Source of the DNA: a virus
Virus record (IMG/VR): IMGVR_UViG_3300009705_000095
Coordinates: 1-26,291 of that record
DNA: 26,291 nucleotides
Direction: 5' to 3' (one strand)
Positions 4,983 to 24,429 of this stretch are shown in pieces (positions within the stretch are counted from its first letter, which is position 1; each line of letters starts with the position of its first letter). The notes below the pieces were generated by a model. The model searched no databases. It was not told the origin of the DNA and saw only the letters and a program-made list of their open reading frames with translations. The position numbers and the translations under genes were made by a program.

Positions 4983-5954
4983 ATGGCCTACGGATTAAAA
5001 GTAACTAATGATAGTGGTCAAGTATTGATAGATTCTGATTTATTTAGTTATCATTTTATTGGTAAGTACAGCTCAGCTTCTAGCCATAACCATACTTACC
5101 TAAGCGATTTAGGTGGTGAGGACTACTGGGATTCACCTAACACAATAGATTCTAATCAAACCCCCGGACGTGTCTTTGTTTATTCTATAACATTACCATC
5201 CTCAACTAAACCTCCGATGTGTTTCATTAAACCTACAAACACAGGAACTAGTGCTAGGTACTCCAGTGTAATTCGTGTATGGAAATATGACACTAACACT
5301 TGGAAGGTCTGGGTCTTACAGTCTTCAAACCATACCACGGGTCCAATGCTATATGCGTTCTCGACTATGGATCAGACAAACAGTACAGTAAGTGATACGT
5401 ACGGGTTGCAAACATTTAACAGTTCAGGACAAGTTACTTTTGATTCAAGACGTAAACCATTACGTATCATTGGTGCTGCTAATGCAACACCACCTTCAAG
5501 TCCTAATTCTGGATCCTTAGGGTCAGGTACTACACCGTATCTTAATGTGAATGCTACACCAAACTCGTACACAACTGGTGCAAACACAACTGCAAGTGAT
5601 CAGATTTACTATTGCCCTTCTTTAGCTTCTGCTTGTAATGAGCACGAACTCGGCAGAGAGGAAAGCGGTTTCAGTAACTGGTCGTACTACACATGGAGTC
5701 GTTACGATATCTGGTGGTGCTTCTACAGGTCTGCCTTTCGTATATCTGCTAATAATACTTTCCAATCTAATTGGTCTGTATATATGGCAGGTCACATATG
5801 GAAAGCTCAAGTTAGTGGTTCATTCCTTGGACTAGGTTATTTAAATGGAATCCCTGTTGTTGGGGCAACACAACATTACCCCTATAGTGATGCTGCACGT
5901 AATCAGGGTGAAGCTAACAGTGTTCTTATAAGCAAGGCATCTTATTATGATTAG
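4983..5954 (+). CDS. tail protein with two DUF6453-like modules
   Basis: The product is 323 residues. The N-terminal module (MAYGLKVTNDSGQVLIDS, then HFIGKY) is repeated inside the protein from Y140 (YGLQTFNSSGQVTFDS, then LRIIG). The stretch between residues about 165 and 200 is a low-complexity Asn/Thr/Ser/Pro linker. The C-terminal third is rich in Trp, Tyr and aromatic pairs and contains three cysteines, as expected for a compact carbohydrate- or receptor-binding tip. The location directly after the fibre gene, with only three intergenic bases before it and an 8-base overlap with the following gene, puts it in the tail operon. It may be a tail-tip adhesin, but no known receptor-binding fold can be assigned by eye. 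Confidence 0.75.
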   Translation: MAYGLKVTNDSGQVLIDSDLFSYHFIGKYSSASSHNHTYLSDLGGEDYWDSPNTIDSNQTPGRVFVYSITLPSSTKPPMCFIKPTNTGTSARYSSVIRVWKYDTNTWKVWVLQSSNHTTGPMLYAFSTMDQTNSTVSDTYGLQTFNSSGQVTFDSRRKPLRIIGAANATPPSSPNSGSLGSGTTPYLNVNATPNSYTTGANTTASDQIYYCPSLASACNEHELGREESGFSNWSYYTWSRYDIWWCFYRSAFRISANNTFQSNWSVYMAGHIWKAQVSGSFLGLGYLNGIPVVGATQHYPYSDAARNQGEANSVLISKASYYD

Positions 5955-8407: not shown

Positions 8408-9571
8408 ATGAGTTGGATAACTCCAGAGTTACTCGATGCTCTCCGTATGGTAGAATCTAGTGGAAATAATAAAGCTGTATCCTCAGCTGGTGCTGTAGGT
8501 GAGTACCAATTCATGCCTGAAAATGTACATGATATGGGGTATGGTGTAGATAAGTTTGACCCCAAGAATCCCGAAGAAGCACGTAAAGCTGCAGCCCAAT
8601 ACTTAAGCGGTATGCAAGAGCATCATGGCTGGACACCTGAGCAAACCTTACAGGCTTACAACTGGGGTCCGGGTAACATGAAGAAGTACCTTTCCAATTC
8701 AGGATTAGACACTGATATAACTATGCCTGATGAAACTTCAAATTATGTAGGTAAGTTTTCCCAGTTTGGGTGGTCTCCTTCTGAAAAAGGAGGAATACAG
8801 ATTGCACAAGAATCTGTTAAACCAATAGATAATATACCAAGAGTTACAGCTGGACTTCCTAGTTTTTCTTTTGATAAGATTGTTGAAATGTTCAGTGATA
8901 AAAACACTGAAGAGACAAAACCTGTATCGGAGATAAAGAAAATGGCAACACAAGAAGCTCAGGCTTACTTTCAAGATTTTAAGACCTTAGATTCATTACC
9001 AAGTATGGACAGTCGTCTAATGGCACCTATGCAACAACTGGTTGAGGAAAAAGTAATACCTGTAAACAGCTATAGTCCGGGCGTAGATATGAATGAAAAC
9101 CCTAAACCAATGTATCCACTTGCTGGTGGATTAACTCAAGAACCACTTGATACGGGTCCAGCACAGTTTGCTGATATTGAAACATTATTTAATGAACCAA
9201 GAACATATGTACCTGCCAGCGGACGTACGGATGCATATAGTTATATTGATAATACTATACCACCACATGCCTCTGAGTTTAGTCAGGCTTATGTAGCACC
9301 TGCAGGTAGAGAACCAGCGGGAGTAGCTGTTGAACAACCTGCTTTAACTCTTGCACAACGTGGGGTAAATCCAAACGCTATATACCCATTACAAAATGGT
9401 ACAGTTGTAGATCAGTCTGGAAAACCTGTCAGGTCTGGTAACAATAATGTTATTGGTCTCCCAACACAGAACGCAGCTTACGCAGCCCCTGCTGGTGGTA
9501 AAGGCGCTAACGCAACACCTCAGTCAGCTATAGATCAGCTAACGGGTATCAAAGGATTTGGAGGTAAGTAA
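8408..9571 (+). CDS. virion lytic transglycosylase (SLT/lysozyme-like) with long disordered tail
   Basis: The product is 387 residues. Residues 1-100 form a lytic transglycosylase domain: VESSGN with catalytic Glu16, then SSAGAVGEYQFMP (25-37), a DPKNPEEA segment (51-58), and AYNWGPGN (83-90), the order found in the SLT family and in the N-terminal domain of T7 gp16. From about residue 120 the sequence is Pro/Asn/Gly-rich with low predicted order. The enzyme should cleave peptidoglycan glycan strands locally so the ejection channel can cross the cell wall. In T7 this activity is the first domain of the giant gp16; here it is a separate gene placed before the giants. The stop overlaps the next ATG by one base (TAATG). 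Confidence 0.85.
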   Translation: MSWITPELLDALRMVESSGNNKAVSSAGAVGEYQFMPENVHDMGYGVDKFDPKNPEEARKAAAQYLSGMQEHHGWTPEQTLQAYNWGPGNMKKYLSNSGLDTDITMPDETSNYVGKFSQFGWSPSEKGGIQIAQESVKPIDNIPRVTAGLPSFSFDKIVEMFSDKNTEETKPVSEIKKMATQEAQAYFQDFKTLDSLPSMDSRLMAPMQQLVEEKVIPVNSYSPGVDMNENPKPMYPLAGGLTQEPLDTGPAQFADIETLFNEPRTYVPASGRTDAYSYIDNTIPPHASEFSQAYVAPAGREPAGVAVEQPALTLAQRGVNPNAIYPLQNGTVVDQSGKPVRSGNNNVIGLPTQNAAYAAPAGGKGANATPQSAIDQLTGIKGFGGK

Positions 9572-12030
9572 TGTTACAAGATTTATTCGATGAACTATGG
9601 GGTAATAAAGCAAATGCTAACGCTTCCTTACGAGATAAGCTGGGACTACCCCCTCAGAAAAGCGTAATGCAAAAGAGTATCGATTCAAGGACAGGTGTTA
9701 ACTACCCACACTCAGATACAACACGACAAGCTATTCTTAGTGATCAGAAAGAGCGGCTACAGCAAGCACGTCAGGCAAAGGGTGTACCTAGTCAGTCATC
9801 TATCCCGAAGGCTACAGGACCTCAACAAATGAACCTACCTCTTGGAGGTGGTCAATCAGGTGCTTCTCAGTTTAAGCCACCATTCCAAGGACCATCTGTG
9901 CCACCTTCACCTCAAATGGATCTTGATTTTAATTCGACTAAGCCATCTGTTAAAGTACCTGTTAATAATAAACTACCTGTACCCACTAACAAACCTAACT
10001 GGGTCCCCGGAAGTAGCAGGGGTGCTAATAGTCCAGCAATGACTTGGTGGGATAATAACGCTAATGTTAAGACTAAAGCTGTTAACCCTGCAAGTGCAGC
10101 AGCCTTAGGTGTTACAGGTTTACTCCACTCGCCTATGCTTGGTAACCCTGAAGATAATGAAGAGTGGGTTGCATCTCAAGTTGAACGAGGTGTTTATCCT
10201 GAGGGATATACCTTATCAACTGTACGTTTAGAAAAAGAATTAACTAAAGATGAAGGTTCTGTCTCTGAAGATCTTACCAGTAAGTATGACGCTGCAGTGG
10301 GTAAACTTGCTGTGCTGGCAGAAGCTGGTGCAAGTCAAGATGTTCTTGATTCTGTTCAGAAAGAAATTAATCTTTTAGATTCTCAAATAAAGTCAGCATC
10401 AGGTGGTGGTCTTACTTCTAACTCTACTCAACTAGAGAAACGTAGGCAGGAACTACTTTCTGAAAAGAAAGATATAGATGCTAAAGTTTTAGAACTATCA
10501 AAGGGTAATATGTTTACTCAGTTAGGTATTATGGATGCCCCTAACGCTGAAGATATGAATAAGATACTAGACAATAGCGGAACCTTTGGTGTTAGTGTTC
10601 GTCAACAAATGACTAACAACGCACAAGCATTAGCAGACTTAGATAAGATACAAGCCATGCGTAAAACAACAGAAGATCTACAGACTAAGGTATCAGAAGA
10701 TACAGAGGTACAAGATCTCATAGCAGAGATGGAGAAACTAGGTCCAGAGGATCCCATTGACCCTAACTTAGGGGCTGAAGCGCAGATCAAGATTGAAAAA
10801 GTTTCCAAGGTAGTTACTAAAGGTTGGTTTGACGGTGTCGATCTTAGTAAGATGATGTCTGCAGCTGGTGACTTCTTAGGTGACATATGGGCTGACCCTG
10901 CTGTTAAGAGTGCGTTAACTTACTATGTAGGTTCTCGTCTTATGGGTTACTCTGCAAGTGGTTCAGGTATGGCTGCTGGTGAAGTATATGTTAAGGGTGT
11001 TGAACAACAGAATAAGATTGATGTGGTTAACGCTAAAGCTGACAAGGATGCTGCTATAGCTGCTAAGAAAGCTGCTCAACCTGACATGTCAAAGACTGTT
11101 GAAATGTTTGACCGTAACTCTAAGAAAATAGTTAGCGGTAATATGGCACCTAATGGAGACTTTTATCTTCCGGGATCTGACATAGCCTTTAACGCAGCTA
11201 AAGCTGGACTTGTCACATATAAGTCTGGACTTAAAGATCATAGAACCTTTGAAGAAATAGATAACGATATGATTACGTACTCTAACGATGCTGTTGTAGA
11301 TGCAATTTCACTTCTTGATGAAGAGTCTTTCCCTTATATTGACCAAGTAAAACGTTTGTTTAGTGATGGTCAAGCAGTCGACTCTATGGTTCTTCACGCT
11401 TCTCGTAGGTTAAAAGAGCAAGGTGTAGACTATGGTACAACTGCATTTAGGGCAGCACTTTCAGGTACTCTTAAAACTGAAATAGAAAAGATTGCAAAGA
11501 ATGGCGGTACAGATACTAACGAATCTATGATGAAGGATCTTATCGGTGCTGTTGAAGCTAACTGGCTTAAGTCTAATCTATTGAAGCAAGGTGCTGTGCC
11601 TAAGTTTGTATTAGGTAAGTACACAGATTGGGGTAAAGACGGTAAAGGTATGAAGTATGACAGTGACTTTGAGTTATCTTCTGTAGATACTTCAAAGTTG
11701 TTTAAAACAGCTTCAGGTATTAACGAAGCTTTTCTTTTGACTGCTGATGAAAAATATCCAAAGCAGATAGCTAAAAACCATAGCATCATAACTCAAACTA
11801 AAACAATACAAAAGTTAGCTATGATCTTTAAGAACGAGGTTATGACTAATAAAGCTGCAGCTAAACATTGGCAACAGATTGCAGATAAGACTGATTCAAA
11901 TGCTTTTAGTTCTTGGCTTCAAAGTTCAAGTATGGATGATGCTCAAGCCCCTAGTAAGTATAATGGTCTTAATCAAGAATCGATAATGTCTCAAGTAGAA
12001 AAACTCTATGACAAGCAGTTTAAAAAATAA
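9571..12030 (+). CDS. large internal virion protein, 819 residues
   Basis: This is a large late protein lying between the transglycosylase and the nuclease-bearing giant. Residues 1-150 are Pro/Gln/Ser-rich and probably disordered. Residues about 230-390 are long charged helices suited to a coiled coil (repeated L-x2-E/K patterns). A mildly hydrophobic Gly/Ala stretch lies around 443-480, followed by mixed helical sequence rich in Lys and Asp. No catalytic motif is visible. Size and position make it comparable to T7 gp15, which builds the middle of the ejection tube. Translation is coupled to the preceding gene through a one-base overlap. Confidence 0.7.
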   Translation: MLQDLFDELWGNKANANASLRDKLGLPPQKSVMQKSIDSRTGVNYPHSDTTRQAILSDQKERLQQARQAKGVPSQSSIPKATGPQQMNLPLGGGQSGASQFKPPFQGPSVPPSPQMDLDFNSTKPSVKVPVNNKLPVPTNKPNWVPGSSRGANSPAMTWWDNNANVKTKAVNPASAAALGVTGLLHSPMLGNPEDNEEWVASQVERGVYPEGYTLSTVRLEKELTKDEGSVSEDLTSKYDAAVGKLAVLAEAGASQDVLDSVQKEINLLDSQIKSASGGGLTSNSTQLEKRRQELLSEKKDIDAKVLELSKGNMFTQLGIMDAPNAEDMNKILDNSGTFGVSVRQQMTNNAQALADLDKIQAMRKTTEDLQTKVSEDTEVQDLIAEMEKLGPEDPIDPNLGAEAQIKIEKVSKVVTKGWFDGVDLSKMMSAAGDFLGDIWADPAVKSALTYYVGSRLMGYSASGSGMAAGEVYVKGVEQQNKIDVVNAKADKDAAIAAKKAAQPDMSKTVEMFDRNSKKIVSGNMAPNGDFYLPGSDIAFNAAKAGLVTYKSGLKDHRTFEEIDNDMITYSNDAVVDAISLLDEESFPYIDQVKRLFSDGQAVDSMVLHASRRLKEQGVDYGTTAFRAALSGTLKTEIEKIAKNGGTDTNESMMKDLIGAVEANWLKSNLLKQGAVPKFVLGKYTDWGKDGKGMKYDSDFELSSVDTSKLFKTASGINEAFLLTADEKYPKQIAKNHSIITQTKTIQKLAMIFKNEVMTNKAAAKHWQQIADKTDSNAFSSWLQSSSMDDAQAPSKYNGLNQESIMSQVEKLYDKQFKK

Positions 12031-12031
12031 C

Positions 12032-12036
12032 AGGAG
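12032..12036 (+). promoter_or_regulatory. Shine-Dalgarno site that decides the start at 12044
   Basis: AGGAG is followed after 7 bases by the ATG at 12044. An upstream in-frame ATG at 12008 lies inside the preceding gene and has no such site, so the shorter product (1341 residues) is preferred. Confidence 0.75.
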
Positions 12037-12043
12037 AAACACT

Positions 12044-15000
12044 ATGGCAAATGGTCTTGTAGTAGATCTAAGTTCTGCACTCTCACAACAAGAAGAGGCT
12101 ACTCAAGGCCCTAACCCCGTAGCCCAAGAAGACTTTTATGACTACGCTTCCCCACAACAGTATACTATTGGAGACACCTCATGGCGTTTCTTAGATGGTG
12201 ATACAATTAAAGACTCTGTAACAGGGGAGTCTGTCAGACTACGTGGTATTAACACAAGAGAAACTTCTAAGTTTCTTGAGGACTCTAGTTTTAAACAGGG
12301 AGAACTTGGTGGTGATGCAGCGACTGCTTACATCTGGGATCTCGCACAGAAACATGGCTTCACTACTGTTATAAAATCAGGAGAAAAAGGTCATCATGGT
12401 AGAGCTATGGGGGATCTTGTGGATAAGGATGGAAACTCTTTTGTAGATACCCTACTTAGGACAGGTGTTGCCAGCCCTTGGCATTTTTCAGATGACTCTG
12501 ATGTTTCATTGTCTAGTTGGGGTATTGCAGCTGAAGCTGGAAAACCAAATGAACCTACGGATTCTTACGAAAATGCAAGGCAAGCAATATATGAGGCAGA
12601 GACCGATCAGTATGGCGGCTTACCTATACAGAAGTTAATGGCATTTGATGCTGCTGAGTACCAAGCAAACCCAGAATTATATATGGGGATGAAGCAAATA
12701 AACAAAGGTGCTGACTATAAGGGTAGGTCTCGTACTCCCTTTGGTACTGGCTATGACACTGGTTTTGCAACACTATACAAGTCTCTTAACAGGCTTGGAG
12801 AAGCTCTTGCAAACAGAGTAGGTGCGGAGGAAACAGAAGCTAGTTTTGCTGCTGATGCTTCTGTTAATCAAGATTATATTAATGCATTACCTACTGTTAA
12901 AATGGATGTTACCGAAATTGATTGGACTTCTTTTGATGAGATAACAACAGGTATGTCAGGTATGCTGGGTACATCTCTGCCTTTTATGGGGGCAACAATG
13001 TTAGGTATGGTAGCAGCCCCTGCAACTTCGGGGACTTCTTTAGCCTTACCTGTATCAATGTACACAGGTATGGTTCTTGACACTATGGAAGGTAAGGTTG
13101 AAGATAAGAATCTTGGCATAGCGATAGTGGCTGGCGCTGCTATGACGTTCTTAGACAGGTTAGGTATCAAGGGTTTTGTATCTCCTTCGATGATGATTAC
13201 AAAAGAAGGTAGGGATCAAGCCATAAAAGCTATTGCTAAAAGTAAATCTATTAGTGAGGGTGAAGCATCTAAACTTCTCCTTAACTTCTCTAAGAAAGAG
13301 ATGTTAACTTACATTGATGACGCTAAAGCTTTTGGAGCTAATCAAATACTTAAAGGTAATCTGTTTAGGGAAGGTGTTAAGAGTCTTACTAAATCAACTT
13401 TGGGTGAAGGGGCTACGGAAGCACTTCAGGAATTAACAGAGTACACTGCTGCTGTTATTGGTTCTGAAAAAGAATGGGACTACGATGAGATAGAGAACCG
13501 TATGACTAATGCTATTGTTGCAGGTGGTCTTATGGGTGCTGGTTTTGCTACGCCCGGAGTTGCAGTTCAAGTAGGTGATTGGAAATCTATTGTAGATTTT
13601 GAAGGGGTTGATGATGGTAGGTTTGATAATATTAACACTAAGTACCGTAAGGAAGAAGAGTCTGAGTTTGGATACGTAAGATCTGTAGAAGAAGTTTCTG
13701 AGAAAGTACGTGCGGAGTATGACAAAAACTATACTGATAACAAAGGTGTCAAAGGTGATGACCATATAAATGACCTTGCGGATAAGCATAAACTTCCCGG
13801 AACTACAATTGAGCACATTAAAGCTTTTATACACAATCCTTTAGTAGCAGTAAGAGCAGCTGTTCGTGATACGTTTGCAGAAGCAATGGGTAAATCTAAA
13901 ACTGTTTCTCAGATTCAAGATATCATGGGATCTGTTCGTAATAAAGTTTATAGTGGTGCTGGTTATATTCAACAACAACAACTTATGATGGCTGAGTATA
14001 GAAAATATATTGGTGAAACAGAAACAGTTGAAGCATCTTTTGATGTACCTAAAGGTATGAGTTCTAAAGGCCGTACTGATTATGTTAGCACTATTATGTA
14101 TAAGTTTTACAGAGAGGTTGTGGAACCAGCTACTAAAGCTAACTCTAGTTGGGATTGGAGTAAGGCATCACCTGATGTTTTAGCTAGAAAGGATGCTATC
14201 ATTAAGCTTGATAGCGGTATCCGTAAAAATGCTGAGGCTTTACGTAATGGTAATAACAAAGCTAAGAAGTACACTGGTGAAGAACCTATCAAATTTCTAC
14301 CTGATTGGGGTTACAGGCATAAAGGTTTTAGAAAAGAATACATTGCTAGTCATAAGGATTTATTTATAAACACCTTGACATCTTCTTATGGAATGTCACA
14401 TGCTGATGCAACTGAATTAACTAATGCTATTATTAATGAAAATCAAGTATCTACTCTTGGCGATGCATTTGATATGACAAGGGGTGGTGTGTCTCCTTCT
14501 TCACAGAAAAGACGTACGATGCACATATCAGATAGGCCTGAGTTTGATCAGTTCTTAGAGCAGAATATATTTAAGAACATGGATGATGCTTCAAGAGAGT
14601 CTGCAAGGTTTCAAGTTCACCGTAAGTTTGTTGGAAAGGATTCCATATATATTAATAGGATGCTAGCTAACGTTCGCAAAGATCTTGATAAAACAATGAA
14701 GCCTGAGGATGCTAACAGACTTTTATATAAGATTGCATACAAGCTTCGTAACATGTTGAATGCCGAGTCTGGTAACTATAATCGTATAGAGAATGAATCT
14801 ATAAAGCAAGGTCAGAAATACCTTACGCTTGTAGCAACTCTTCAGGGTTTATCTAACGCTGCGTTCTCCTCTATGCCAGAGATGGCTATGCTACCACTAG
14901 GTGTATCTCGAGATGTTCTTGTCAAGAATGCAGCCACACAGGGTTATTTGTTTGGTGAGGCTGTTGGTTCATGGATACGTAACAACGCTGTTATGTTAAG

Positions 15001-16069
15001 GATTGCACAACCTCGAGAAGACCCTACAACTTATCTTGACAGAAAGATAGCTGAGGTTAGATCTAAAGGTGAAGCGGATCCACGTTACATTTTCTATACA
15101 AACATGAAACAATTGTTAAGAGAGACTGGGTTTAAAGCACAAGAAACAGGTGCCGCAACTACCACAGGTGTTCAAGAAACTAATGAGATGACTAAAGGTC
15201 TCACTGATGCATACTTTAAGGCTAACTTTTTACATGACCAGCAAGACATGCACCGTATGGTGAGGCTTTCATTATTCAATGATTTCCTTATTGAAAAGCT
15301 AGACTTAATTGAGTCTAAGAAAGGTGAAGAAGATACTGTTGGTGTGTCCGAAGCTAAGCACATGTTAAGGGAGCTAGGAATATCCTTGCACACTATAGCG
15401 CCTATTGCTAATATGTTAAAGGAAGGTAAGGAGTTATCAGCAAATGATGCTTCAAAGTATAAGCGTGAGTTTCTTAACGGAGCTGCTAACTTTGTTAACC
15501 AAGCTGTACCTTTACCAAACGCATTCAACAGACCACTGTTCTATAGTGACCCACGTTTTGCATTACTTACTCAGTTTAATGGTTTCACTTCTACATTTAC
15601 AGCTAACCAGTTGCCGATGTTATGGGATCAACTTAAAGGTAAAGGAAGTAAAGGTTTAACGTATGGTACTTTTGCAACTATGGGAAGTATGCTTGCTCTT
15701 GCATTTATATCTCAAGGAATTAAAGATGAACTTAAGTATGGGGAGACTTCACCGTACTTAACTGATAACCAAAAGATACAACGAGCTATCTATTCAAGCG
15801 GGTTATTAGGAACTACAGAGCGTGTAATTGGGAGTAACTTTATCTTTCCTCTATACGGAAATAGCAGCTACGGTCCGGGAGAGTTTGTATGGGATAACAT
15901 TGCAGGTGAAGCAGCTGCCACAGGTACAGTTGGTCGTGTCTATGGTATGCTAGACTCAGCAATACAGAGTGACGGTGACAAGTTTATGAAGAACTTCTAT
16001 GGAAGTTTACCATTTCTTGCACCTTACAAGCATAGGCTTATGCAATATCAGTGGGGAAAAGAGGAGTAG
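12044..16069 (+). CDS. giant ejection protein with N-terminal staphylococcal-nuclease-like domain
   Basis: The product is 1341 residues. Residues about 38-148 match the SNase/thermonuclease fold. LDGDTI (50-55) aligns with the calcium-ligand loop, VRLRGINTRE (64-73) with the strand carrying SNase Arg35 and Glu43 (here R65 and E73), and GHHGRAMGDLVDKDGN followed by a LLRTGVAS stretch (117-144) with the region of Arg87 (here R120). The ligand equivalent to Asp40 is N70 and the Pro before Glu43 is R72. The remainder is not recognised; it has hydrophobic stretches near 302-345, 486-505 and 1209-1224 and a C-terminus ending in basic/aromatic residues. The location among ejection proteins suggests it enters the host with the genome, carrying a nuclease domain of unknown target. 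The polymerase-bearing giant starts 3 bases later. Confidence 0.78.
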   Translation: MANGLVVDLSSALSQQEEATQGPNPVAQEDFYDYASPQQYTIGDTSWRFLDGDTIKDSVTGESVRLRGINTRETSKFLEDSSFKQGELGGDAATAYIWDLAQKHGFTTVIKSGEKGHHGRAMGDLVDKDGNSFVDTLLRTGVASPWHFSDDSDVSLSSWGIAAEAGKPNEPTDSYENARQAIYEAETDQYGGLPIQKLMAFDAAEYQANPELYMGMKQINKGADYKGRSRTPFGTGYDTGFATLYKSLNRLGEALANRVGAEETEASFAADASVNQDYINALPTVKMDVTEIDWTSFDEITTGMSGMLGTSLPFMGATMLGMVAAPATSGTSLALPVSMYTGMVLDTMEGKVEDKNLGIAIVAGAAMTFLDRLGIKGFVSPSMMITKEGRDQAIKAIAKSKSISEGEASKLLLNFSKKEMLTYIDDAKAFGANQILKGNLFREGVKSLTKSTLGEGATEALQELTEYTAAVIGSEKEWDYDEIENRMTNAIVAGGLMGAGFATPGVAVQVGDWKSIVDFEGVDDGRFDNINTKYRKEEESEFGYVRSVEEVSEKVRAEYDKNYTDNKGVKGDDHINDLADKHKLPGTTIEHIKAFIHNPLVAVRAAVRDTFAEAMGKSKTVSQIQDIMGSVRNKVYSGAGYIQQQQLMMAEYRKYIGETETVEASFDVPKGMSSKGRTDYVSTIMYKFYREVVEPATKANSSWDWSKASPDVLARKDAIIKLDSGIRKNAEALRNGNNKAKKYTGEEPIKFLPDWGYRHKGFRKEYIASHKDLFINTLTSSYGMSHADATELTNAIINENQVSTLGDAFDMTRGGVSPSSQKRRTMHISDRPEFDQFLEQNIFKNMDDASRESARFQVHRKFVGKDSIYINRMLANVRKDLDKTMKPEDANRLLYKIAYKLRNMLNAESGNYNRIENESIKQGQKYLTLVATLQGLSNAAFSSMPEMAMLPLGVSRDVLVKNAATQGYLFGEAVGSWIRNNAVMLRIAQPREDPTTYLDRKIAEVRSKGEADPRYIFYTNMKQLLRETGFKAQETGAATTTGVQETNEMTKGLTDAYFKANFLHDQQDMHRMVRLSLFNDFLIEKLDLIESKKGEEDTVGVSEAKHMLRELGISLHTIAPIANMLKEGKELSANDASKYKREFLNGAANFVNQAVPLPNAFNRPLFYSDPRFALLTQFNGFTSTFTANQLPMLWDQLKGKGSKGLTYGTFATMGSMLALAFISQGIKDELKYGETSPYLTDNQKIQRAIYSSGLLGTTERVIGSNFIFPLYGNSSYGPGEFVWDNIAGEAAATGTVGRVYGMLDSAIQSDGDKFMKNFYGSLPFLAPYKHRLMQYQWGKEE

Positions 16070-16072
16070 CCG

Positions 16073-19000
16073 ATGGCTAAATTTACACAAGCAATTAGTA
16101 ACACTGCTGAAAAGGGAGTTGCGTTGTCTGACAACGTATCCCTTAAAGCAAAGATTAGGAACCAGTTAAGTTTAGCTAATGAAGGTGATAGCGTCATTGA
16201 CGATAACGTTATTAATGACCAAGAGCAACCAGCTACACCAGATGGTAGTAGATTTTATAACACGCAGTTGACTGAAGCTATGCCTTACACTAAAGGTATA
16301 GTGATGGAACCTGAGAAGGTTACCGAATCTGAAGCTTTGGAACTTGAGTCTCGTCAGAGAGACTTAGAAGCTGATCAGTCTTTGCAGCAGCTACATGGGA
16401 CCAGCCTTGGTGATTATAGTCCTGACGATATCACTAAGATTGCTGGACCTATCGCAGCACCTTTCATTATAAACTCTATTAAGAGACTTCAAGAGACAGA
16501 CTCTTTGTTCATACCTCTTGATGAAGCTAGGAAAATGAAGTCTGTCAAAGGTATGTTAGGTCTTAGGTCTGAACCTGAACCTGAAACTGGGGTTTCTGAT
16601 CCATCTACAATATATGAACCAGCAGATGATAAGACTTGGGTAGACAAGGATAATACAATACCTTTAACTTCAGCCGAACTATTTGGCCACATGAATGGAG
16701 TTAGGTTTTCATTTGACTCTAGAGTTATGGAAGTTCTACCAGATTTACAGGTATTATCTTTAACACTTATGGAATCTGTGCTTAGTAAGCAAACAGAACA
16801 AGAGTCTATGATTTCTCAGGAAATGATTGACAACTTTTCTAGAGATGAGATTAAAGACATAGTAGGTCTTACTTCTGAAGAAACATCTTCTGGTATTTCA
16901 GAAGAACAGATAGGGCGTACTCTTTCAGAAGAGTGGCTTAAATTCCAACAAGTTCAGGAACTAGGGATGGACACTGTACCTGACGCTCATCTTGATCCAC
17001 AAAACGAGATGACCAAGGAGGCTTATGAGAAGCTTGGCTTATGGGCTAAACAACTTTATTCCTTAGGTAATCCAATTATGTATCAAGCTGTTCAAGTTAA
17101 AACTGGTAATGGTAGAACCCGTGGGGACTACCTTGTTACACCTCTTGGTCGTAGGATTTTAGGGGAAAACAAGAGACAGCTCATGCCACCTAAAGTGAGG
17201 TCTAGGCCTCAAGTAAGTGACAAACCTCAGGTAACAAACCAGTATTCAAATGTTAAAGAGAAAACTGGTAATCATTACGAAGACCCTAAACAAAGTGCAC
17301 AGGATAAAAGAAAACCAAAATCACCTGAAGCACAGATTAGGGTTAACACATCTAAGGTTCGTCATGTTATCACACCAGTACGGTTTAAGTCTGGTATGCT
17401 GTTAAGTCTTATGGGTTTAGCTGCCGCTGCAGATAGAAAGATAGTCAACGGTATGTTGGTTGTTGTAGGTAACGCTGCTGAGATTCTTGGTATAGGTCAA
17501 AAGACTGCAGATAGTATTAGCAATATGTCGCGGGATGCTCTGTATCGTGTTGATAGTATGTTAGTTGAACTGTCAACTTTTAAAAACCTAAACCACCCTA
17601 AGGTTGCACAGTTGAACCGTAAGATTGAAATCTTAAGGGCTTTTGCTGCTGAGTCTTCTACCGATGAATTTAAGATTAGAATGTACGATTTTAGATCAGG
17701 TCAGGTTCTTACGATGTTGCAAGATATTGCAGAGTTTAAGGATGATCCTATTAGTTTTGCTAACTATATTCAAAAGGGAACATCTCGTCTTGGGTACAGC
17801 CCACAGTCAATGAACATGCAAACACATAAACTTGCACGACAATTATATGGCAGTGGAAATTCATATCAAATAAAGCCCGGAAGTAATTCCAATGCTGAGT
17901 TTGCCATGCTTGTAACTTGGGGTGCACATTTCTTTGAAGAGTCTAATGTTGTACCTGAGCAGATGATGGCTAACATGCGAAAGCGTATTGCTATGAAAGA
18001 TGACAAGCTTATGTCTATTGCAAGTGTTGGTAAAAAACTTAAAGAGATCCTTAATAATTATGATTCGGACTCAACCAGTAATGCTATCCTTGCGATGCAG
18101 CAAGTGGAGAATCAAATTCAAGGTGTAGGTAATGTTCTTAAAACAAAAGCTGAGTTCAATGCTGACAGTGAAGTTGTTCGTTTTATGGATGAAATATTTG
18201 AACATCCTAATGAGGCTATTAACTTAGTTGAAGAAGCTATCGAGCTTGGCAGGTATATGGATACAGTTGAACGTGGCGGTAGCTTCTCTTCGTCTATGCG
18301 CCCTGTTGAAGTTGACGGAATCACTAATGGCCTTGCAAGTATGGGTGCTCAGTTGGGTATTGGAGAGATGATGTATCGTGTTGGAGTATTACGTGAGAAC
18401 CCAACTAAAGTTCTTGCAGAGTACGAGGGGGTTGAGGGTAACTTACGTGAAGTCCTTTCAAAGAATATGCGCAGCACGTTACCTGATGTTCTTAATAGTA
18501 TACAGTTTAGGGAGAAGTTTAAAGGTCTTGATATTGAGTACTTACCTGAGCTTGAGAACATACTTGCATTAGCTTTTAACAATACTGATGACTTCTTAAA
18601 ATACCCTTTGATGACTTTACCTTATGGTCAAGCGATCAAGAGTATGATCTCTATGATGATGGATGTGGTTACCAAGGACCCTTCGCTTACTGAGATTGCT
18701 TCTAGAAGGAAAGGGGGTGTGCCAGAGTTGTCTCAAATTCTTCATTTTATTCTTGAAAAGAATCTTATGGAAACTTTGAACCCAGAGATGATTGCTTTTA
18801 CCCATAGAGTTAAACAGCTAACCGAGTTAGGTATGTTAGTTGATGAACCTATACGCTACAAAAAAGCAACAGGTATCTACACTTCAATCAACACAGTAGA
18901 TTATGTACCACGAAAAGGTGCACCTGTTATCTCTGAAATAAAAGAGAAGTATGTTAAACCTAAAGGCGATTACGTGTATGGGGACCCTAGTAAAGAGTAC

Positions 19001-19801
19001 CCATCTGTTCTTGGAAGCACTCGTCTTACAAGGAATAAGTATCAACCTACTAGTTCAGAGCAGAACTCTCTTGGACTAACCCCTGATGGTGGTTGGAAAG
19101 TGGAACAGAGTATACTACCCCAAGTTATCATTGGACTAGACGGGGCTACACTTGCTGTTGCTCTTTCTGATTCTAACTATCGACAGTTACAACATGCTTC
19201 TGGGGTTGACACTCCTTATGTTACTACTATATACGATGCTGTTATAGGTGACCTTGGTTCTTTTAAACCACTAACAGAGTTAGTTAATAGGTCTTGGAAG
19301 AAAGTAACCTTTGAGTATGATTTAATAAAGGAACTAGCTGACGGGGCTAATGAAGCGTTAAGTCGTGGTGGTGAGAAGCTTAAGGCTGAAGCTCTTAACA
19401 ATCCTAAGGGATTGAGAGAGAACGATGCTCACTCTGCTTACTTGCTTGATAAGGGCTATGATATGATAAGGTATCGGCCAAAGAATGCTAAGGGTAAACA
19501 AGGTCCTTTAACAGATGGTATGGAACACATAAGGAGTATTCAACAAGATACGACTGCAAGGTTTGATGTTCTGTCTGATAAAGAAAGGAAATTGTTTTCT
19601 TCCAGAGCTAGTATGCTTACAAATCAACAAGCTTACGATCTGTTTAGAATAACTTCTCAAGGTTTGGGCAATGTCTTACAAAGCATGTACACTTCTGCAG
19701 CTACTGCAAAGAAAGGTAGGTCTGCTATTTTGAAAGCACTTGGACCTAACCCTGTGTTTCAATACCATGTTGATGCAATTAAACGTTTTAACTTTAACTA
19801 A
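16073..19801 (+). CDS. putative virion-packaged single-subunit RNA polymerase (N4 vRNAP type)
   Basis: The product is 1242 residues, the last late gene. The C-terminal half carries the motif set of T7/N4 RNA polymerases. Motif A is RPVEVDGITNGLASMG with D748. Motif B is KYPLMTLPYG with K843-x7-Y851-G852, the same spacing as T7 K631/Y639 (KRSVMTLAYG). A PQVIIGLDGATLAVAL stretch matches the T7 PNFVHSQDGSHL region. Motif C is TTIYDAVIGD with D1055. Motif A to B is 95 residues (94 in T7). A possible counterpart of the T/DxxGR element lies near 569-591 (GTSRLGY then NMQTHKLAR). The Arg four residues before the motif B Lys is D839 here. The first 400 residues are acidic and unrecognised. Location with ejection genes implies packaging in the virion, where it would start early transcription on entry. 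The motif match is visible; packaging is inferred. Confidence 0.8.
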   Translation: MAKFTQAISNTAEKGVALSDNVSLKAKIRNQLSLANEGDSVIDDNVINDQEQPATPDGSRFYNTQLTEAMPYTKGIVMEPEKVTESEALELESRQRDLEADQSLQQLHGTSLGDYSPDDITKIAGPIAAPFIINSIKRLQETDSLFIPLDEARKMKSVKGMLGLRSEPEPETGVSDPSTIYEPADDKTWVDKDNTIPLTSAELFGHMNGVRFSFDSRVMEVLPDLQVLSLTLMESVLSKQTEQESMISQEMIDNFSRDEIKDIVGLTSEETSSGISEEQIGRTLSEEWLKFQQVQELGMDTVPDAHLDPQNEMTKEAYEKLGLWAKQLYSLGNPIMYQAVQVKTGNGRTRGDYLVTPLGRRILGENKRQLMPPKVRSRPQVSDKPQVTNQYSNVKEKTGNHYEDPKQSAQDKRKPKSPEAQIRVNTSKVRHVITPVRFKSGMLLSLMGLAAAADRKIVNGMLVVVGNAAEILGIGQKTADSISNMSRDALYRVDSMLVELSTFKNLNHPKVAQLNRKIEILRAFAAESSTDEFKIRMYDFRSGQVLTMLQDIAEFKDDPISFANYIQKGTSRLGYSPQSMNMQTHKLARQLYGSGNSYQIKPGSNSNAEFAMLVTWGAHFFEESNVVPEQMMANMRKRIAMKDDKLMSIASVGKKLKEILNNYDSDSTSNAILAMQQVENQIQGVGNVLKTKAEFNADSEVVRFMDEIFEHPNEAINLVEEAIELGRYMDTVERGGSFSSSMRPVEVDGITNGLASMGAQLGIGEMMYRVGVLRENPTKVLAEYEGVEGNLREVLSKNMRSTLPDVLNSIQFREKFKGLDIEYLPELENILALAFNNTDDFLKYPLMTLPYGQAIKSMISMMMDVVTKDPSLTEIASRRKGGVPELSQILHFILEKNLMETLNPEMIAFTHRVKQLTELGMLVDEPIRYKKATGIYTSINTVDYVPRKGAPVISEIKEKYVKPKGDYVYGDPSKEYPSVLGSTRLTRNKYQPTSSEQNSLGLTPDGGWKVEQSILPQVIIGLDGATLAVALSDSNYRQLQHASGVDTPYVTTIYDAVIGDLGSFKPLTELVNRSWKKVTFEYDLIKELADGANEALSRGGEKLKAEALNNPKGLRENDAHSAYLLDKGYDMIRYRPKNAKGKQGPLTDGMEHIRSIQQDTTARFDVLSDKERKLFSSRASMLTNQQAYDLFRITSQGLGNVLQSMYTSAATAKKGRSAILKALGPNPVFQYHVDAIKRFNFN

Positions 19802-20681: not shown

Positions 20682-20687
20682 TCCTCT
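20682..20687 (-). promoter_or_regulatory. Shine-Dalgarno site overlapping the RNA polymerase stop codon
   Basis: AGAGGA (- strand) sits 7 bases before the ATG at 20674 and overlaps the polymerase stop (20686-20688). It favours this start over an in-frame TTG at 20692. Confidence 0.65.
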
Positions 20688-22932
20688 AACAAAAGAAATA
20701 ATCAGAGGAGATGATCTCAGATATATCTAATGACCCTAGCTCTGGTTGTTTAAGTTTATAACCCTCTCGGGTCTCTAATAGCATCTGCTCTATAGCAGTA
20801 AAGAAGTTATCACTGTTATACATCATAGCAAATTGCCACTTGGTGTGGTCTATCAATTTATTTATATCACATGCATGAGTTGAAAAGGAATCATGTATAG
20901 CTCCAAAGTCTCCAGAGAAACTCTGAACAACTTTAGCCATGTGAGCTGCGTCCATTGAATGGATAAAATTAGGTGAGCATCCAGATGCAAACGATCTCCT
21001 ACACGGTAACAAGTTACCATTGGAAGTGATGTAAGGTATCTTAATGCTATGACCTATCTGACCAAGACCACGTATGGTACTGCGTACAGTGATGTTCTTC
21101 TGTCTCCACACTTCGTACAACACTGGGAATCCTGAAGGAGTTGTCCAACGTGTACATGTGTTACCTGATGACAGTATGTGGTCAGTCATCTTCTGTATAA
21201 ACTTCATAGTTTTCAAGGGACCCACACAAGTATCATTGATTGAAAGTATAAGTTGTTTTGACAGAGAGGTACAGTCATCTTCTGTAATATTATACTCCGT
21301 GTCATACCCTTCAACCTTACAATCATAATACATGTTAGCTGCAATCTTCTTTTGACCAGCTGAGTAAGCCCTTGTCATTGACCCACGCTTTGCTATACCT
21401 TTTCGTATAGCTTTCATTGGCATGTTACGACCTTCAAACCACTCAGGCATTCTCTCTGTAAGACGCTTGGCTACTTGGACATAGAAGTCCTTCTGTATCT
21501 TACTAGGTACTAGGGATACTAGTTCGCCAGCTTGCTTGTCTTTAGAGATAGCTGCCAGATGTTGCCATCCATTGTTACTCCCATCAACAGGGATAGGTAG
21601 TCTACTCATATGTACAGCACCTTCAAGTACGGAAGTGCCGTACCCCTGAACATCTAAGCAACATGCAAGAAAGCTAACTGGTTTTTCTGCTTCTGTTCTG
21701 AAGCTCTGTCCATCCGCTAATTGGTTTATCCAAGTCAGGTTGTTTAGGGTCCACAACTCTCTGTCCTTTAGCGTCATCTTGTCTACTGAAATTGTGTATA
21801 ATCCTTCGTCTTGAAGATAGGTTCGGTAGTCCGCTGTTACCCATGTTGGTAGTTCCTCTATATCATAAGATTGATTATAAGAACAAGCTGTGTGTATGCA
21901 TAGCCATCTGTACCCCTCGGTATCCATAGCTTTTGCATAAGCAAACTCAAAGAGTCCCTTGGATACATCAGAACCTTGGTAGTTTAAGAATGGTTCTGTG
22001 TAGTACACACGCCCACGATAGTCACACTCTACCATTTGATAGAAGTCACGTAGTCCTATGGCATGTACCTTAGCAATTACGAACTTCATCTCTATAGCTT
22101 TTGACTTAGCTTTTATAGACTGATCCTCAAGATCTATGAACAACCCTAGGTTAGTCTCTAAAGCCTTGGCTACTGTACTGTTAAGCCTCCAAGGTGTCTG
22201 CTGCAGCTTGTTAAGAGCAGTAATAAAAGGTGCTCCTATAAGCTGCTTAAAGTCTTCCTCTGAACTCATACGTTTAATGTATGGCCTCTTGGTGAACTCA
22301 TTACGCAGTGACACTATGTCTTTTGGAGGGGTGAATGACGTACCTATAAGCGTACTCTTTATATACTCAGGGGGTAGGTCACCAAGGGTAGCCCATGTAC
22401 TTAGTAACTTTATAATGTACGGTGCACGGAACCCTTCGTACTCCCTTTCAATATGTATATAACCAAGTTGAAAGAAAGCTTCTAGGTATAGGTCACCTAC
22501 TGCAAGGATCTCCTGATGGTTAGTGTTTAGTACACCTAAAGCAGACAGCACCTGTAAGCCTATCACAGACGATGTAACGGTTAGTTTAAAGGGGTTTGAT
22601 GATGACCTCCGGGACTTCTGATAAGCTGCCACAGCACCTGCTACGGCCCTTACAGTGAGCTTCTCGTACGTGTATCCGTAGGGTATCATTGAAGATATTA
22701 ATCTGGCCCCTTCCGGGGGCCTCCCACGAAATGAATTACCCTCACATCTTTCCTTTATGTACTCTGTTATACGCTCTACACCAGCAGAGTTATCCAGTGT
22801 ACTCGAGGAAGTCCTCTTGTCCTCTGAGTCTGTTGGTTTTGGTATCGTAGTATGCTGATCCGCAGTCTCCAGTGCGTCCTGTGAATCGTGACTTAAGTAC
22901 TCGGAGTTTAATTGTGTTTCGTTCATCTTCAT
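20686..22932 (-). CDS. T7-like single-subunit DNA-directed RNA polymerase
   Basis: The product is 748 residues (T7 RNAP is 883, so the N-terminal domain is shorter). Landmarks in order are DYRGRVYY with DxxGR at 304-308; motif A PIPVDGSNNGWQHLAAISKD with D450; motif B AKRGSMTRAYS with K515 and Y523; SPNFIHSMDAAHM, matching T7 PNFVHSQDGSHL; and motif C AIHDSFSTHA with D681, 67 residues before the C-terminus (71 in T7). The protein ends in aromatic residues (DYFFC), comparable to the T7 FAFA foot. The Arg four before the motif B Lys is K511 and the Gly after Tyr is S524. It would transcribe phage genes from its own promoters. The start lies 143 bases inside the primase-helicase gene; no better in-frame start with a ribosome-binding site is visible downstream. 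The distal position in the operon is unlike T7, where this gene comes first. Confidence 0.95.
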   Translation of the reverse strand: MKMNETQLNSEYLSHDSQDALETADQHTTIPKPTDSEDKRTSSSTLDNSAGVERITEYIKERCEGNSFRGRPPEGARLISSMIPYGYTYEKLTVRAVAGAVAAYQKSRRSSSNPFKLTVTSSVIGLQVLSALGVLNTNHQEILAVGDLYLEAFFQLGYIHIEREYEGFRAPYIIKLLSTWATLGDLPPEYIKSTLIGTSFTPPKDIVSLRNEFTKRPYIKRMSSEEDFKQLIGAPFITALNKLQQTPWRLNSTVAKALETNLGLFIDLEDQSIKAKSKAIEMKFVIAKVHAIGLRDFYQMVECDYRGRVYYTEPFLNYQGSDVSKGLFEFAYAKAMDTEGYRWLCIHTACSYNQSYDIEELPTWVTADYRTYLQDEGLYTISVDKMTLKDRELWTLNNLTWINQLADGQSFRTEAEKPVSFLACCLDVQGYGTSVLEGAVHMSRLPIPVDGSNNGWQHLAAISKDKQAGELVSLVPSKIQKDFYVQVAKRLTERMPEWFEGRNMPMKAIRKGIAKRGSMTRAYSAGQKKIAANMYYDCKVEGYDTEYNITEDDCTSLSKQLILSINDTCVGPLKTMKFIQKMTDHILSSGNTCTRWTTPSGFPVLYEVWRQKNITVRSTIRGLGQIGHSIKIPYITSNGNLLPCRRSFASGCSPNFIHSMDAAHMAKVVQSFSGDFGAIHDSFSTHACDINKLIDHTKWQFAMMYNSDNFFTAIEQMLLETREGYKLKQPELGSLDISEIISSDYFFC

Positions 22933-24418
22933 CTTCTGCCACTAAGTTACGAGAGAATGTTATTATATCAAAGCTGATCTGTTTAATCGAACCAGAACCT
23001 TTGATGTCATCGATAGACGATAGGTGTCCTTCTTCAAAGGACTTACCTTGTGACTTCCTAAGGTGGCTTATCAAACCTAGCCATACGTTATGCTTCTTGA
23101 CTATCTTTAGAAGGTCAGACATGACTGAATCTATAGCTTCGTTACCTGTCTTTCCATCAGCCCCTTCAGATACTGCAATGGTGATATGATCAAGAATGAT
23201 ATACTGGCACCCAAGTAAGCATAGGTTTTCAATTTGATCAATGAGACTAGAATCCGAAACCGCACCGTTATGGTCAAGTAGGATGAGTCTTTCATTCCCA
23301 AATACTCTTTCAAATGCTTTACGTTCTTGCTCAACAGTCGGGTCTGTAGGAGTAAACATCTTGATAAACTTCTCTGCAGAATCCCCAATGCTTTCTTCAA
23401 GAGATACAAGGCCAATGACTTCATCTGTATTATCCTCCAATTCTAATATTATTTCTTTGATCATGGTAGATTTACCTGACCCTGTACCAGATGTGAACAG
23501 TACAATCTCACCCTTACGCATACCATCTAGCTTATTGTTAAGACCTTCAAGACACTGAGGGTATGGTACAGACTTAACAGACTTACGTTCAACATATGCT
23601 TCCCAGATAGCTTCACCACGTACAATAGCTGCTGGTGTGTACCTTCGTGCGTTAAACACAGCAGTTATGATAGCACTGGGGTTAGACATAAGTGTGTCAC
23701 ATGGATCATTATCAGGCAGTGATGCTACTTTAGTTTTATCCCAACCAATTATCTTGGCTGCTTCTGCTACTGCTTTTTCTCCAGCATCATCTTGATCAAA
23801 CATTAAGATTACTTCTTTGAATGATCGTAACCAATCTCGGTTAGCCACAAGTATCTTCATGTTAGATGAGGATGGTAGGGATACCACAGGATATACTTTC
23901 TTATACTTGATAAGCATAGCTTGTTGTACTGCGATAGCATCTAACTCACCTTCAGTTATGATTACTTTTAATCCACCGGGTTGGAACTTAGATTGACCAA
24001 ACAGTTCAAGCTTGGCGTTCTTAAGGTCACCTACAACTCGGAACTCCTTAGGTAAAGTCCTCTTCTTATATGCAACTGTCTTACCTTTGACTGTGTATGG
24101 GTAGTAGTGTGCATTAACTGTTCCGTTAGAGTCATAAGATATTTTCATATCATACTCATCACATGCAGTCTTAGTTAGGTTACGGTCACGTACTCCCGCA
24201 CTGTCGTAGTTGTGTATATCTTGAAGTGAATCTCCACTCATATCGTACTCTCGTTTGGTATTCGGTTTAAACTTTGACACTACGGTGTCGTCATATTGAT
24301 CTAGGAAAGCTGGCTTGTTACATGCAAAGCACTTACCTCTTCCATTGGACCATAGTGCTACTGCATCTGATGATCCACAATGTACACATGGATAGTGTTT
24401 AGTAAAGGTTGCACCCAT
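22790..24418 (-). CDS. T7 gp4-like primase-helicase
   Basis: The product is 542 residues from ATG 24418. A zinc-binding domain has C11-x2-C14 and C30-x2-C33. The TOPRIM primase domain has ITEGELD (E156-D160), MFDQDDAG (D208-D211) and a CDTL segment (240-243). The helicase domain has Walker A SGTGSGKST (310-318), a conserved SLEES (339-343), Walker B YIILDH (D410), H3 ISHLRKSQGKSFEEGHLSSI and the C-terminal KSRFTGRTG (509-517) carrying the candidate arginine finger R511. The protein would unwind DNA ahead of the DNA polymerase and lay down RNA primers for lagging-strand synthesis. All domains are intact and the length is close to T7 gp4 (566). The last 47 codons also encode the N-terminus of the RNA polymerase in another frame. 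Confidence 0.97.
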   Translation of the reverse strand: MGATFTKHYPCVHCGSSDAVALWSNGRGKCFACNKPAFLDQYDDTVVSKFKPNTKREYDMSGDSLQDIHNYDSAGVRDRNLTKTACDEYDMKISYDSNGTVNAHYYPYTVKGKTVAYKKRTLPKEFRVVGDLKNAKLELFGQSKFQPGGLKVIITEGELDAIAVQQAMLIKYKKVYPVVSLPSSSNMKILVANRDWLRSFKEVILMFDQDDAGEKAVAEAAKIIGWDKTKVASLPDNDPCDTLMSNPSAIITAVFNARRYTPAAIVRGEAIWEAYVERKSVKSVPYPQCLEGLNNKLDGMRKGEIVLFTSGTGSGKSTMIKEIILELEDNTDEVIGLVSLEESIGDSAEKFIKMFTPTDPTVEQERKAFERVFGNERLILLDHNGAVSDSSLIDQIENLCLLGCQYIILDHITIAVSEGADGKTGNEAIDSVMSDLLKIVKKHNVWLGLISHLRKSQGKSFEEGHLSSIDDIKGSGSIKQISFDIITFSRNLVAEDEDERNTIKLRVLKSRFTGRTGDCGSAYYDTKTNRLRGQEDFLEYTG

Positions 24419-24423
24419 TAGTT

Positions 24424-24429
24424 CCACCT
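24424..24429 (-). promoter_or_regulatory. Shine-Dalgarno site that decides the start at 24418
   Basis: AGGTGG (- strand) ends 5 bases before the ATG at 24418. The upstream in-frame GTG at 24427 lies inside this site, so the ATG is the likelier start. Confidence 0.65.

Follow-up and report, generated by a model that had tools for sequence, protein, structure and literature searches.

What does a nuclease-like domain do at the N terminus of a giant phage protein that may enter the host together with the viral genome? The question is raised by a protein of 1341 amino acids encoded by an uncultured marine short-tailed phage (IMG/VR record IMGVR_UViG_3300009705_000095, 26 291 nucleotides; this whole stretch of DNA is referred to below as the window). 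A first-pass annotation had described the protein as an ejected virion protein carrying a domain similar to staphylococcal nuclease (SNase), and had considered that the domain might act as a nuclease or serve only to bind nucleic acids.

The gene and its neighbourhood

The features of the locus are compiled in table 1. The open reading frame, its length, the motif DGDT at residues 51–54 and the residues R65, N70 (at the site of SNase D40), E73 and R120 are all found where the first-pass annotation had placed them. The same open reading frame contains an alternative ATG upstream, at position 12008; the start at 12044 is favoured because of the Shine–Dalgarno sequence in front of it and because homologues begin at the equivalent methionine.

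Table 1. Features of the 1341-aa protein gene and of its neighbours (all on the + strand; positions are those of the window).
Feature	Positions	Strand	Basis
387-aa protein with SLT transglycosylase domain	8408..9571	+	PF01464, E 3.4e-16
819-aa protein, presumed second ejection protein	9571..12030	+	homologues in 38 loci; function inferred from position
Shine–Dalgarno AGGAGA for the 12044 start	12032..12037	+	sequence; homologues begin at equivalent Met
Gene of the 1341-aa protein (SNase plus ejection-protein-like body)	12044..16069	+	ORF and translation; homologues in at least 60 distinct loci
SNase domain, residues 38–180 by family model (OB-fold core ~38–150)	12155..12583	+	profile and fold matches
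D51-G-D53-T54 = SNase D19-G20-D21-T22	12194..12205	+	D51 and D53 62/62; T54 61/62
R65 = SNase R35	12236..12238	+	62/62
N70 at the position of calcium ligand D40	12251..12253	+	family D 40, N 20, E 2 (n = 62)
E73 = SNase E43	12260..12262	+	62/62
R120 = SNase R87	12401..12403	+	62/62
Linker, residues ~181–240, ahead of the body common to SNase-less virion proteins	12584..12763	+	body homology starts near family-model position 230
Hydrophobic region, residues 307–379 (cf. T7 gp16 TMH I)	12962..13180	+	Kyte–Doolittle scan
Hydrophobic segment, residues 490–508	13511..13567	+	Kyte–Doolittle scan
Conserved C-terminal body, residues 1022–1341	15107..16066	+	phrog_6958 virion structural protein, E 6.8e-17; alignments A4 and A5
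1242-aa protein, presumed third ejection protein	16073..19801	+	homologue directly downstream in 30/60 loci (single-sequence search)

Beyond the late structural genes, the coding strand switches to genes for an RNA polymerase, a primase/helicase and an exonuclease. The RNA polymerase ORF (748 aa; 20686–22932, minus strand) matches phrog_414 only from residue 271 onward. As called, its start lies within the primase/helicase ORF (22790–24427, minus strand), giving an overlap of about 140 bases, and the true start is probably further downstream. Within the structural module, a 323-aa protein (4983–5954, plus strand) matches PHROG families of host-takeover or membrane-associated proteins. Among the fetched loci a homologue turned up in L017 alone (82% identity), suggesting that the gene was inserted recently.

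The N-terminal domain and its active site

Taken alone, the window domain, at about residues 38–160, scores 18.6–19.3 bits with the Pfam model PF00565, under the cut-off of 21, and a PDB search with the window sequence alone returned chance matches only. One relative (L129) exceeds the Pfam cut-off with 21.9 bits, and the window protein matches PHROG 452, 'endonuclease', with an E-value of 1.9e-4. Family profiles match the S. aureus nuclease in the PDB, with E-values of 4.7e-6 for a profile of 17 sequences and 2.1e-8 for one of 56 sequences, in a register that aligns the DGDT motif, R35, D40, E43 and YGR87.

A first AlphaFold model, built from a shallow alignment of 17 sequences, had a pLDDT of 51 and was too poor for use. 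The AF2 model built from 56 sequences (pLDDT 91.8, pTM 0.86) has the SNase topology, with the same OB-fold order as S. aureus thermonuclease (PDB 1SNC), namely beta1-3, alpha1, beta4-5 and alpha2-3. When this model was compared with the PDB by Foldseek, each of the 50 matches listed was to SND1 or to staphylococcal nuclease, with E-values from 5e-5 and a TM of about 0.5. Both the profile search and the structure prediction, which the first-pass annotation had proposed as checks, thus bear out the SNase-like domain, and together they strongly support the view that the N terminus of the 1341-aa protein is a genuine member of this family. Of the two outcomes named there as grounds for rejection, a predicted structure lacking an OB-fold and homologues in which R65, E73 and R120 vary, neither was observed. 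R65, E73 and R120 should be grouped in three dimensions, to judge from the fold match and from the register of the alignment. Given the invariance of these residues, the fold and the result of the profile search, we reject the possibility that the DGDT/R/E/R pattern is an artefact of chance or composition.

The best match of the model in BFVD is A0A646QXC0 (E 6.6e-10), whose length of 1368 aa equals that of gp34 of Roseobacter phage CRP-7, described below. The second, A0A6J5NQ80 (1342 aa, from an uncultured Caudovirales phage), is entered under the automatically assigned name 'Staphylococcal nuclease (SNase-like), OB-fold' and is probably a member of the same family; the domain itself was already visible to automatic annotation.

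Conservation was assessed on 62 distinct homologous domains, which form 42 clusters at 70% identity with a median pairwise identity among clusters of 26%. The equivalents of SNase D19, D21, R35, E43 and R87 are all present in the phage domain, and the corresponding residues D51, D53, R65, E73 and R120 are the only fully invariant columns of the 56-row alignment A6. In SNase, D21 binds calcium. Apart from being the N-terminal module of a 1341-aa protein, the phage domain differs from S. aureus thermonuclease in having Asn at the D40 site, which could mean weaker metal binding in the window protein. This substitution is common enough in the phage family (20 of 62), and it also occurs in one of the 11 cellular SNases used as a control, the other 10 having Asp; Asp40 is not strictly defining.

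Between the two functions that the first-pass annotation had considered, the evidence favours an active enzyme, because the metal-ligand and general-base positions are as invariant as the phosphate-binding arginines among the 62 sequences, and because the dN/dS of the domain is 0.06–0.24 in ten close pairs, pointing to purifying selection. A pure binding module, whose OB-fold would hold on to the front end of the phage DNA as it is ejected, without catalysis, is unlikely. OB-folds are often nucleic-acid binders, 22 of the 62 domains have N or E in place of the D40 ligand, and the C-terminal domain of T7 gp16 binds DNA (PMC8954989), but such a role would not demand invariant equivalents of E43 and D21 (62/62) while identity over the remainder of the domain drops to about 26%.

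Distribution of the family and origin of the body

Scans of IMG/VR with the protein and C-terminal alignments as queries located the C-terminal body in 75 distinct ORFs. The SNase domain is found at the N terminus of 59 of the 60 that have a complete 5' end, the lone exception being a 439-aa fragment (L156) close to the end of a contig; the 59 intact members with a complete 5' end all retain the domain. This fragment (DNHN01000098.1, 645–1961), the sole relative detected in scans of the genome_contigs collection, lies in a MAG contig labelled Bacteroidetes, which is likely to be a phage contig binned with the MAG.

One of the 59 members comes from a cultured podovirus, CRP-7 (gp34; MK613349), a short-tailed phage infecting Roseobacter RCA bacteria (PMC6918029). 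Annotated as a hypothetical protein, gp34 has about 22% overall identity to the window protein, with the same architecture and the full set of SNase residues, including Asp at the D40 site.

The C-terminal body of the window protein contains the motif QFxGF..TFxAN and a hydrophobic segment at residues 1204–1226 (Kyte–Doolittle). Its match to phrog_6958 (table 1) is shared by the relatives P0003 and P0005–P0008 (E-values from 4e-18 to 6e-24); CRP-7 gp34 gave no match to this family. Proteins that match in the body only include gp14 of Vibrio phage VPp1 ('particle protein', 927 aa), a 1043-aa protein of Pseudomonas phage JB8 and gp88 of Kochitakasuvirus R4900a ('structural protein'). The homologous body of these phrog_6958 proteins extends over family-model positions ~230–1224, starting at about 230 in VPp1 and JB8 and at about 660 in R4900a, and none of the three has an SNase domain. 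The domain is a modular addition to the body: since related bodies occur in other phages without it, sequence comparison identifies it as an N-terminal module of the marine lineage. The internal virion protein of VpV262 (1536 aa) gave no match to the family profile.

The related bodies that do without SNase also speak against the idea that the nuclease acts on the phage's own DNA, in the producing cell or at entry, for instance by trimming or nicking ends at packaging or release, and not on foreign DNA. SNases are nonspecific nucleases, so that end processing by one of them would be use of a blunt tool, and we consider this idea rather improbable. It would be in keeping with the late operon position, which would bring the enzyme near packaged DNA, and for ParB-like DNases of polyvalent proteins a part in the element's early replication has been proposed (PMC5512222).

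Comparison with known ejected proteins and a proposed role

Internal virion protein D of phage T7, gp16 (1318 aa), begins with a transglycosylase (residues 1–156), continues with a tape and has two hydrophobic regions and a C domain that binds DNA; once ejected, it has its gp16-N part in the periplasm and its gp16-C part in the cytoplasm (PMC8954989). The 1341-aa protein resembles it in length, in its N-terminal enzyme, in its late structural context and in the presence of hydrophobic regions after the enzyme module and close to the C terminus. The enzyme differs, being a transglycosylase in T7, whereas the window phage has its SLT domain on the separate 387-aa protein. Comparisons by hhalign, using the full family profile and the C-terminal profile, with a single sequence and with a seven-member gp16 profile, detected no significant homology to T7 gp16, the C-terminal alignment being collinear over 97 columns but not significant; the resemblance is therefore treated as an analogy of layout and not as kinship.

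We infer that the nuclease is active and Ca2+-dependent, that the virion carries it and that it works at entry. In the reading that we prefer, with a probability of roughly 0.6, a marine podovirus lineage has a large internal virion (ejection) protein whose N-terminal module, an SNase-family and probably Ca2+-dependent nuclease, cleaves unshielded nucleic acid as the phage enters. That it is an ejected virion protein, as the first-pass annotation had it, is supported only indirectly, by the late structural position of the gene and by the body, whose relatives bear the annotation of virion, structural or particle protein; the SLT protein and two other large proteins encoded alongside fit this reading. 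SNases are typically secreted and Ca2+-dependent, and Ca2+ is high in seawater, as would also suit an exposed tail component whose nuclease digests extracellular or capsule-bound DNA before attachment; this is very improbable, as the hydrophobic segments of the body, its size and the gene adjoining an SLT ejection-type protein better suit an internal protein.

As an internal protein, it would be packed in the capsid and would presumably leave it at infection along with the SLT enzyme and the large proteins of the neighbouring genes. Like T7 gp16-N, the N-terminal domain would then refold in or at the periplasm; in seawater bacteria, Ca2+ would be high there. SNase requires Ca2+, and the gp16-like layout, by analogy, would expose the domain to the periplasmic ion; this placement rests on analogy with T7 gp16 because no sequence homology between the two is detectable. 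The nuclease might cut nucleic acid not shielded by the DNA channel, either envelope-associated or host DNA, or the incoming DNA of a competitor. The phage DNA would be spared if the domain were inactive or sequestered in the virion and if the genome passed through a closed channel. In seawater, a nuclease that depends on Ca2+ and lies packed next to DNA would need such a silencing step, which counts against the proposal. A more specific version is tentative, and we think it somewhat doubtful: widespread marine podoviruses would bring a Ca2+-dependent nuclease to the periplasmic end of the channel, silent in the virion and activated by refolding in the Ca2+-rich periplasm, which would destroy rival phage DNA or host DNA as soon as infection begins while their own genome is inside the channel.

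Polyvalent proteins, for example those with the ParB-like DNase of P1 DdrB or with PBECR RNases, are large, contain nuclease modules and are thought to be co-injected with the genome, host DNA or rival elements being the proposed targets (PMC5512222). The window protein is similar to them as a large phage protein bearing a nuclease module; the main text of that paper (Iyer et al. 2017, PMC5512222) makes no mention of SNase or staphylococcal nuclease. Pfam revealed neither an LPD nor a peptidase domain of the polyvalent kind in the window protein, and compared with the definition of polyvalent proteins (at least two disparate domains) it has one recognised enzyme domain and an unclassified body. 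In the open-licence literature searched, no SNase was found on an internal virion or ejection protein of a phage. The combination of SNase with an ejection-type body is new; injected phage proteins bearing nucleases are already an established idea.

The invariant catalytic residues in dozens of distant relatives suggest that these phages bring in a nuclease together with the genome. If the domain is active and virion-borne, it would be a generic nuclease that enters with the phage DNA. How, then, does a phage pack such an enzyme beside its own DNA, and what is attacked on entry? As CRP-7, growing on a Roseobacter RCA host, is a cultured member of the family, the idea is experimentally accessible. 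A further suggestion from the comparison with T7 is that ejection proteins have, at their N terminus, a slot in which enzymes can be swapped, filled by a transglycosylase in T7 and by a nuclease in the window phage. Kayfunavirus gp16 (e.g. that of Escherichia phage EcoDS1, L194 229–4116) is about 53% identical to T7 gp16, with an alignment that begins only at residue 152; the enzyme in the N-terminal slot thus appears to have been exchanged in Kayfunavirus as well, and that of gp16 itself may be exchangeable.
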